Assembly (NCBI RefSeq): GCF_039535785.1
Contig: NZ_BAAAXV010000001.1
Coordinates: 3,100,001 to 3,164,000 of the forward strand
Reading direction: 5' to 3'
Source of the DNA: Nonomuraea helvata
GTDB lineage: Bacteria; Actinomycetota; Actinomycetes; Streptosporangiales; Streptosporangiaceae
DNA: 64,000 nucleotides
Shown: positions 27,898 to 29,280 of the stretch, piece by piece
Layout of the letters: every line of letters begins with the position of its first letter
Numbering within the stretch: the stretch's first letter is position 1
The notes under the pieces: generated by a model
Databases searched by the model: none
What the model saw: the letters and a program-made list of their open reading frames with translations, nothing else
What the model was told of the DNA's origin: nothing
Translations under genes and position numbers: made by a program

Positions 27898-28959
27898 TCA
27901 GCTCTTGGACGCCCTGCGGGAGCGCGCGGCGGCCGCGAGGACGTCGAGCAGGCGCTCCGTCTCGTCCCAGCCGACGCAGGAGTCGGTGATGCTCTGCCCG
28001 TACGTCAGGCCCTCGCGGGGGCCGGGCTCCTGCCGGCCGGGGACGATGAAGCTCTCCACCATCAGACCGGCGATCCCTTCCTCGCCCTCCGCGATGCGGG
28101 CGGCGAGCTCCCTGACCACGGCCGCCTGACGTACGTGGTCCTTGCCGCTGTTGCCGTGGCTGGCGTCCACGATCAGACGCTCCGGCCGCTGGGCCTTCCG
28201 CAGCAGCGCGAGGGCGTCGCCCACGGAGTCCACGTCGTAATTGGGGCCGCCACGGCCGCCGCGGAGAATGATGTGGCAGTCCGGATTGCCCTTCGTGCTC
28301 ACCACCGCGGCCCGCCCCTCGTCGTCGATGCCGAAGAAGACCTGCGGGTGGGCGGCGGCGTGCACGCCGTCGATGGCCACCTGCACGTCGCCGTCCGTGG
28401 CGTTCTTGAAGCCGACGGGCATGGACAGGCCGGAGGTGAGCTGCCGGTGTACCTGGCTCTCGGGTGTACGCGCGCCGATCGCCCCCCACGTGACGGCGTC
28501 GGCGATGTACTGCGGGCTGGTGGGCTCCAGGAACTCGCAGCCGACGGGCAGTCCCGTGCCGAGCACGTCGAGGAGCACGGTGCGGGCGAGGTGCAGACCT
28601 CGTCGCACGTCATGGCCGCCGTCGATGTCCGGGTCGTTGATCAGCCCTTTCCAGCCGATGGTCGTCCGCGGCTTCTCGAAGTAGACGCGCATGACCACGC
28701 ACAGGGCATCCTCCATGCCGCGGGTGGCCGCGGCCAGACGGCGGGCGTAGTCAAGTGCCGCCTCCGGGTCGTGTACGGAGCACGGTCCGATGACGAGCAG
28801 CAGCCGATCGTCGTCACCGGCGAGAATGTCGCGGACGGCACGACGGCTCGCCGCGACGAACTCCTCTTTCTCCTCCCCCAACGGGAGTTCCGCGCGAAGC
28901 TCCGCGGGTGCGGACAGGGCTTCGAACGAGGTGATGCGTAGATCCCTGGTCACAGTCAT
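27898..28959 (-). CDS. aroF: 3-deoxy-7-phosphoheptulonate (DAHP) synthase, class I
   Basis: A 353-aa enzyme that condenses phosphoenolpyruvate with erythrose 4-phosphate, the first step of the shikimate pathway. Motifs of class I (AroF/G/H) enzymes: VIGPCSVHDPEAAL, VYFEKPRTTIGWKGLI, GARTPESQVHRQL and DASHGNSGK. The start at 28959 (MTVTRDLRI) is taken because the longer frame runs into the leader structure. It is monocistronic and preceded by a 200-nt leader with a short peptide and terminator hairpin. Confidence 0.92.
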   Translation of the reverse strand: MTVTRDLRITSFEALSAPAELRAELPLGEEKEEFVAASRRAVRDILAGDDDRLLLVIGPCSVHDPEAALDYARRLAAATRGMEDALCVVMRVYFEKPRTTIGWKGLINDPDIDGGHDVRRGLHLARTVLLDVLGTGLPVGCEFLEPTSPQYIADAVTWGAIGARTPESQVHRQLTSGLSMPVGFKNATDGDVQVAIDGVHAAAHPQVFFGIDDEGRAAVVSTKGNPDCHIILRGGRGGPNYDVDSVGDALALLRKAQRPERLIVDASHGNSGKDHVRQAAVVRELAARIAEGEEGIAGLMVESFIVPGRQEPGPREGLTYGQSITDSCVGWDETERLLDVLAAAARSRRASKS

Positions 28960-29013
28960 GAGGTGGGCCTGCTCTCTAGCGCTCGGGCGGCGATACGGCC
29001 CACGCCCGAAGGT

Positions 29014-29121
29014 CCGGAGCCGACCGCCTAAATGACGAAAAGGCAGGAGACGAGTCTCTCTGCCTTTGGCTCCGGATGAACAGTTGATCAGCGCATGTGA
29101 TCCTGGGCCCCACCCGGAGCC
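29014..29121 (-). promoter_or_regulatory. Candidate transcription attenuator in the aroF leader
   Basis: On the minus strand three 8-nt segments compete: GGCTCCGG inside the leader peptide gene (29114-29121), CCGGAGCC just past it (29068-29075), and GGCTCCGG again downstream (29014-29021). The middle copy can pair with either. Between the second and third lies a hairpin (29038-29067): AAAGGCAG pairs with CTGCCTTT, an inner GAGAC/GTCTC extends it, and a run of four T follows. Confidence 0.7.
29038..29067 (-). terminator. Intrinsic terminator hairpin within the aroF leader
   Basis: Stem AAAGGCAG/CTGCCTTT with an inner GAGAC/GTCTC stem and a TTTT tract on the minus strand, 79 nt before the aroF ATG. 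It is one of few U-tract hairpins in this GC-rich window. Confidence 0.75.
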
Positions 29122-29156
29122 TGCACATAGCGCGAAAATCGACTGATCAGCGGCAT
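29088..29156 (-). CDS. Putative aroF leader peptide (22 aa)
   Basis: A 22-codon reading frame, beginning MPLISRFSRYVQAP and ending DHMR, starts 7 nt after a TACGGT -10 box, so its mRNA may be nearly leaderless. It contains one Phe (residue 7) and one Tyr (residue 10) and stops just before the competing stem and terminator. In Corynebacterium glutamicum a leader peptide with aromatic codons controls aroF by ribosome-mediated attenuation; this has the same layout but is too short to prove homology. Confidence 0.6.
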   Translation of the reverse strand: MPLISRFSRYVQAPGGAQDHMR

Positions 29157-29163
29157 GTTGTGA

Positions 29164-29193
29164 ACCGTACCAGCCGAGACGACCACGACTCAA
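29164..29193 (-). promoter_or_regulatory. aroF promoter
   Basis: On the minus strand TTGAGT (29188-29193) and TACGGT (29164-29169) are separated by 18 bp, a good match to a vegetative actinomycete promoter. The expected start site is at or within a few bases of the leader ATG at 29156. Confidence 0.65.
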
Positions 29194-29280
29194 GTCGGCC
29201 GCCAGGACATCGACCCTTCCGCAACCCCTCACTCCCCGTTTGCCGGCGGTTACTGGGGCGGTGGCTAAGGTTCGTGACCT

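Follow-up and report, generated by a model that had tools for sequence, protein, structure and literature searches.

The window analyzed here is a 64,000-nucleotide stretch of the Nonomuraea helvata genome. On its minus strand lies aroF, preceded by a leader in which the following features were located. Each is listed with what it was assigned from, where applicable.

29164 to 29193, minus strand: promoter, TTGAGT (29193-29188), an 18-nt spacer, and a TACGGT -10 box (29169-29164).
29088 to 29156, minus strand: leader peptide frame of 22 codons, MPLISRFSRYVQAPGGAQDHMR followed by a stop codon; frame conserved in the genus.
29111 to 29121, minus strand: segment A, GGCTCCGGGTG (that is, GGCTCCGG followed by GTG); A:B covariation and fixed spacing.
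29106 to 29111, minus strand: segment A' (GGGGCC); sequence, MFE fold, and covariation in relatives by eye.
29086 to 29102, minus strand: stop-codon hairpin region (GATCA CATGCGC TGATC); sequence.
29068 to 29078, minus strand: segment B, CATCCGGAGCC (CAT followed by CCGGAGCC), whose partner is A or C.
29038 to 29067, minus strand: P2, a terminator-like hairpin, AAAGGCAG.GAGAC/GTCTC.CTGCCTTTT, between B and C.
29025 to 29037, minus strand: small hairpin P3 (CGTC ATTTA GGCG); sequence and compensatory variants by eye.
29014 to 29021, minus strand: segment C, GGCTCCGG; B:C duplex energies against foreign and shuffled C.
28963 to 29003, minus strand: possible hairpin, GTGGGCC (29003-28997) with GGCCCAC (28969-28963); fold.
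27928 to 28959, minus strand: aroF, type I DAHP synthase (TIGR00034, 478 bits).

The leader ATG (29156) follows the -10 box after 7 nt, and the frame contains two rare control codons, TTT (Phe7) and TAT (Tyr10). Segment A starts 8 nt past the initial base of TAT, the last aromatic codon; its alternative partner, A', forms the 3' arm of an A:A' hairpin within the leader frame. Segment B starts 12 nt past the initial base of the stop codon, the stop-codon hairpin sits within the A:B loop, and P2 lies directly 3' of B, with the tail TTTTCGTC. C paired with B would enclose P2 and P3, the latter found in only part of the family. The possible hairpin adjoining the aroF start codon was retained by eye in five of seven genus sequences, and its predicted access was the same whatever the ribosome position. 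None of 200 dinucleotide shuffles of the window leader folded as stably as the leader itself (z = −3.5). The original prediction had placed a promoter, a 22-codon frame with Phe7 and Tyr10, and three 8-mers, the last two separated by a hairpin, on the minus strand before aroF, and its coordinates proved right.

Consensus scans of the window called neither a promoter nor a terminator at the aroF leader, because its U-tract consists only of TTTTCGTC and its -10 box is of the actinobacterial TAnnnT type. The U-tract terminator hairpin of the original prediction thus stands as a conserved, covarying stem (see below) with a short U-tract and a negative consensus scan. Elsewhere in the window the P2 tail was no more frequent than expected by chance, and it was not used to support P2 as a local terminator type. 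Searches with Rfam covariance models, those for riboswitches and T-boxes included, gave zero matches at the gathering threshold and none at E values up to 10 either.

Distribution of the leader and a second target gene

Type I aroF of the window kind is present in 7 of 55 genomes of the genus (window genome included), and the other six genes are 81 to 92% identical to the window aroF. The leader precedes all seven of these close aroF genes and is absent from two more distant paralogues (L117 and L118). This conservation, together with that across the class described below, establishes that the leader is not a product of chance. The peptide consensus in the genus is ...SRF[WS]RY..AP[GD]GA..HMR; Trp8 is replaced by Ser in the window species and its nearest relative, and the other relatives keep F-W-R-Y or W-Y-W-R-F. 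Judged from this consensus, the single Phe and Tyr codons, which are present and had been regarded as an oddity, are the remnant of a Phe-Trp-Arg-Tyr cluster.

Beyond the genus, leaders with aromatic clusters (W-Y-W-R-F, Y-W-R-F, Y-F-W-F, or similar) were found in Streptomyces, Glycomyces, Mycobacterium, Gordonia, and Rhodococcus and likewise in Amycolatopsis, Kribbella, Micromonospora, Isoptericola, and others, with APGG coming after the aromatic cluster in most. When 395 genomes of the class were searched with a covariance model built from 21 leaders, 81 gave matches with E values up to 0.1, a count in which some of the weakest matches are plain terminators. The weak matches L246 to L252 were excluded as members; they have no leader frame and resemble ordinary intergenic terminator hairpins. 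In the Mycobacteriaceae-type family, an aromatic leader with a -10 box was found in 20 of 20 sampled genomes. Short frames with dense aromatic runs (e.g., FYFWYY and SYFWYF) also precede DAHP synthase genes of Proteobacteria such as Xanthomonas and Bradyrhizobium (L072, L073, L081, L084, L088, L092, L099, and L104), where the architecture is different.

A protein tree placed the window aroF with those of Streptomyces sp. 150FB and Glycomyces (starred support), apart from most aroF genes of its own family, and the leader label required 4 changes on the aroF tree versus 13.4 with shuffled labels. The small number of genus genomes with aroF and the nearest genes in Streptomyces and Glycomyces suggest transfer with the attenuator; aroF and its attenuator thus appear to have been transferred together.

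The aroF-leader model also matched genomes without a type I aroF, as well as a second site in the window genome (G000:C1:1107365-1107504, minus strand; L233 and L266), where the leader MTCRYAFTEPALGEPVVS precedes a fusion of a DAHP-synthase-like domain with chorismate mutase. Downstream products at such sites are a DAHP-synthase-like domain plus chorismate mutase type II or a stand-alone chorismate mutase (PF00793 and PF01817). The DAHP-synthase-like part of the window-genome fusion scored 22.5 bits against a Pfam cut-off of 25.5, and that of L245 scored 58; this part may have lost catalysis in the window lineage. Across the order, a model of the chorismate-mutase form matched 124 of 201 genomes. 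This form was present in 12 of 12 genus genomes tested, and the aroF carriers have both leaders. Among the best-match loci examined (L253 to L292), a chorismate-mutase gene lay directly 3' in 39 of 40, and the remaining locus lies 82 bases from a contig end; most weaker matches also precede chorismate mutase. The element was correctly taken as an aroF leader and belongs, in addition, to a widespread actinobacterial family with chorismate mutase as its second target. In the literature we found no chorismate-mutase leader in Actinobacteria, a subject that Neshat 2014 and Lopatovskaya 2010 might cover in part. Within one family, the aroF genes of Nocardiopsis-type genomes (L005, L008, L010, L012, L016, L018, and L019) are without the leader, and in related Nocardiopsis-type genomes chorismate mutase retains it (L303 and L304).

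Control codons, pairing, and geometry of the leader

In 130 of 132 leaders, a TAnnnT box ends 6 to 8 nt 5' of the start codon of the peptide frame (background, 0.6%); the choice of start codon from the in-frame candidates had taken the box into account. This -10 position would put the transcription start at or beside the leader start codon. The nearly leaderless leader peptide, singled out as unusual in the original prediction, is instead the rule here; leader peptides of Actinobacteria are often leaderless, and this is usual in Streptomyces (PMC8079986).

Among 67 distinct aroF leader peptides, Trp occurs in 52, Phe in 66, and Tyr in all 67; of 52 distinct chorismate-mutase leader peptides, none contains Trp, all contain Phe, and 39 contain Tyr. 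The control-codon content fits the pathway branch of the downstream gene. Of the 71 Phe codons in aroF leaders, 63 are TTT, and of the 85 Tyr codons, 81 are TAT. The reference values for TTT and TAT are only 0.5% and 1.4% in the aroF coding sequences and 1.1% and 8.7% in the frames of the window. This choice suggests selection at translation, with an RNA-level preference for U as the alternative, and we infer that the leader frame is translated. The APGG(A) motif is kept across families, as it would be if the small peptide itself had a function and the pairing of the RNA were incidental. That explanation is very hard to credit, since APGG is exactly the A:A' sequence and its changes are matched in B (L023, L026, L028, and L034), and neither the C-terminal part nor the order of the aromatic residues (FWRY, WYWRF, and YFWF) is constant.

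In model-fitted alignments of 85 aroF leaders, A:B was 97% paired with two-sided changes at 8 of 11 pairs, and P2 was 98.8% paired with two-sided changes at 10 of 10 pairs. Sliding the partners in the 85-leader alignment reduced pairing over the structure from 93% to 33 to 52%. Both A:B and P2 were 98% paired in the chorismate-mutase leaders (n = 59), and the cells of the stop-codon hairpin were 52 to 69% paired in aroF leaders versus 94 to 99% in chorismate-mutase leaders. Because the alignments were fitted to the tested structure, a separate test compared each leader's own duplex with duplexes formed with foreign partners. The own A:B duplex had a mean energy of −26.0 kcal/mol versus −19.7 kcal/mol with foreign B and was better in 90 of 91 cases, and the own B:C duplex averaged −19.5 kcal/mol versus a foreign mean of −17.2 kcal/mol and was better in 72 of 91, counts that, like those of the covariation above, are inflated by relatedness of the leaders. 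Against shuffled C windows, B:C had a mean z of −2.3 in the aroF leaders and −2.0 in the other set. By these measures A:B is the core switch and B:C is secondary. The conserved short frame in seven of seven genus aroF leaders and the covarying A:B and P2 stems are what the original prediction led one to expect in relatives. Its alternative pairing of A, B, and C is upheld, with A:B strong and B:C weaker; the nested B:C pairing around the terminator exceeds controls and has the lesser role.

Spacing is tightly kept. Measured from its opening base, the last aromatic codon lies 8 nt from A in 60 of 68 leaders and the stop codon 12 to 13 nt from B in 40 of 68, and the gap from B to P2 is 1 to 6 nt in all 68 aroF leaders and 1 to 5 nt in the chorismate-mutase sister group. 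In our reading, a stalled ribosome would cover the codons and leave A just free, and a terminating ribosome would leave B just free. When the stalled ribosome was masked, A:B was predicted at 0.86 in aroF leaders, 0.74 in chorismate-mutase leaders, and 0.70 in the window; folding from the stop codon gave B:C at 0.67, 0.69, and 0.80, respectively. Prior to synthesis of C and with no ribosome, A:B was predicted at 0.64 (0.95 in the window).

Folding as the RNA grows found no upstream partner for the 5' arm of P2 in any of 132 leaders; its upstream pairing averaged at most 0.07 during growth and was 0.00 at the U-tract. A:B therefore cannot exclude P2 through pairing. An antiterminator overlapping P2 was rejected as a candidate, and the leader is not placed among the classical trp-type attenuators, in keeping with the doubt about a classical mechanism voiced in the original prediction. 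The proposed chain from aromatic supply through ribosome position to read-through is thus sustained at the sensing step, and the sequence does not show the pairing that would compete with the terminator. A terminator stem that lacks a competitor is also what would be seen if Rho or ribosome-polymerase coupling governed termination and the pairings served only to time or position the ribosome, and the short, fixed codon-to-A and B-to-P2 distances would hold a stalled ribosome beside the terminator. The strong covariation of A:B calls for a role of the duplex itself, and we regard this alternative as improbable.

The U-tracts after P2 are strong in chorismate-mutase leaders and short in the window, and the P2 arm sequence is conserved within clades. 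Five loci (L023, L025, L026, L043, and L192) lack a terminator U-tract, and their C complements the Shine-Dalgarno sequence of aroF (CUCCCG:CGGGAG and CUCGCG:CGUGAG). The complementarity suggests a translational version of the element in this group, possibly with the opposite pairing logic, and regulatory output may vary from clade to clade.

Such leaders bring up the rival explanation that the switch operates mainly after P2, on translation. Formation of A:B would then leave C available to a segment D further downstream, and C:D pairing would open the ribosome-binding site; B:C would free D to close the site. P2 would have a structural role or limit leakage constitutively. Consistent with this explanation are the excess of B:C over shuffled controls, alternatives of C:D and of D with the ribosome-binding site seen by eye in mycobacteria and in the window genus, the Shine-Dalgarno complementarity of the five loci, and the existence of other actinobacterial leaders without obvious terminators (Seliverstov 2005, PMC1262725). 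Masked folding of 68 leaders, however, found Shine-Dalgarno access indifferent to ribosome position (mean change, −0.001; 14 up and 11 down) and so left translational control by this route unsupported; moreover, C is apparently missing from two or more of the three leaders of putative Corynebacterium genomes, and the polarity of C with the Shine-Dalgarno sequence in one group is opposite to that of D in another. We consider control after P2 unlikely.

Candidate attenuation mechanism and related systems

The element before aroF is probably a ribosome-mediated attenuator that links aroF expression to aromatic amino acid supply. Sensing by the aromatic codons is well supported and, as first proposed, a ribosome-mediated leader is borne out by conservation and codon content; the coupling of the stall to the terminator would be unusual. 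With ample Phe and Tyr (in relatives also Trp), the ribosome would reach the stop codon, A would re-pair with A' behind it, B would be left free, and P2 would terminate transcription. With charged aromatic tRNA scarce, the ribosome would stall at the TTT/TAT cluster with its leading edge just before A, keeping A out of the full leader hairpin so that the A:B duplex forms. This duplex, abutting P2, would lower termination and allow aroF expression. B:C may act as a second, post-terminator layer in transcripts that read through in fed cells. We infer both termination at P2 in vivo and the manner in which A:B lowers it. A tentative explanation for the latter, which we hold as a possibility of less than even weight, is antitermination without strand competition, in which A:B, kept at a constant spacing from the stalled ribosome and a few nucleotides from P2, blocks termination sterically, in a manner common to aroF and chorismate-mutase leaders across Actinobacteria and tuned by the scarcely used codons TTT and TAT. 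Counted against the attenuator model are the lack of an upstream competitor for the 5' arm of P2, the frequent prediction of A:B without a ribosome, the short window U-tract and the failure of the scan to call P2, and the absence of a consistent shift in ribosome-binding-site access. The model also leaves the sequence conservation of P2 arms within clades unaccounted for.

In Corynebacterium glutamicum, according to PMC4046766, aroF has a Phe-Tyr-Phe leader and an attenuator transcript was seen by RNA-seq; PMC11802643 states that aroF transcription rises on Phe limitation and not with Tyr. Compared by description, this element (aroR) likewise has a leader peptide with aromatic codons before a type I aroF. 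Three putative Corynebacterium genomes of the Mycobacteriaceae-type family carry the leaders MRNWRFYFEWGSGR, MRMWRFYFSKAPEAETS, and MSVQRFYFGGAPVGADDAAASSSR, with W-R-F-Y-F or R-F-Y-F, an A-B-P2 order by eye, and a -10 box 7 nt upstream; they are partly without the APGG segment, and C is apparently absent in at least two of the three. The window form, in contrast, has one Phe, one Tyr, a stop hairpin, and C. Since these genomes carry the R-F-Y-F version, the window element very probably belongs to the aroR attenuator family, known to us by description, in architecture and probable ancestry. New relative to the known C. glutamicum case are the occurrence of the family in many other bacterial families and its position before chorismate mutase, both shown at the level of sequence.

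With trp-type attenuators (Escherichia coli trpL and the trp leaders of Streptomyces and Corynebacterium), the leader shares control codons for the end product, a terminator-like hairpin before the structural gene, and a choice, set by ribosome position, between a leader hairpin and an alternative pairing (here computed). Unlike in those systems, A:B ends a few nucleotides before the terminator and spares its 5' arm, and an extra segment lies beyond the terminator. The enterobacterial pheA and pheST leaders contain Phe codons, and pheA is an aromatic-pathway gene with chorismate mutase activity. Phe codons for an aromatic-pathway gene are thus common to both; to our knowledge, sequence and architecture are unrelated. 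The regulation of pheA and pheST is treated in PMC11802643. The LEU element of actinobacterial leuA, in which a pseudoknot joins the leucine codons to the Shine-Dalgarno box of leuA (Seliverstov 2005, PMC1262725), has in common with the present leader the end-product codons in a leader peptide and a non-classical RNA fold.

The same study found no conserved RNA structures upstream of Phe and Tyr genes in Actinobacteria (Seliverstov 2005, PMC1262725). This gap, along with the lack of an Rfam family, would be filled by one family serving two pathway genes, in which the aroF leader would read the whole pathway (W, Y, and F) and the chorismate-mutase leader only the Phe/Tyr branch. The family would offer a clean test case in which codon content sets specificity, rare-codon choice serves as a sensitivity device, and a terminator works without a pairing competitor, and it would give a handle on aromatic flux in actinomycetes that produce antibiotics.
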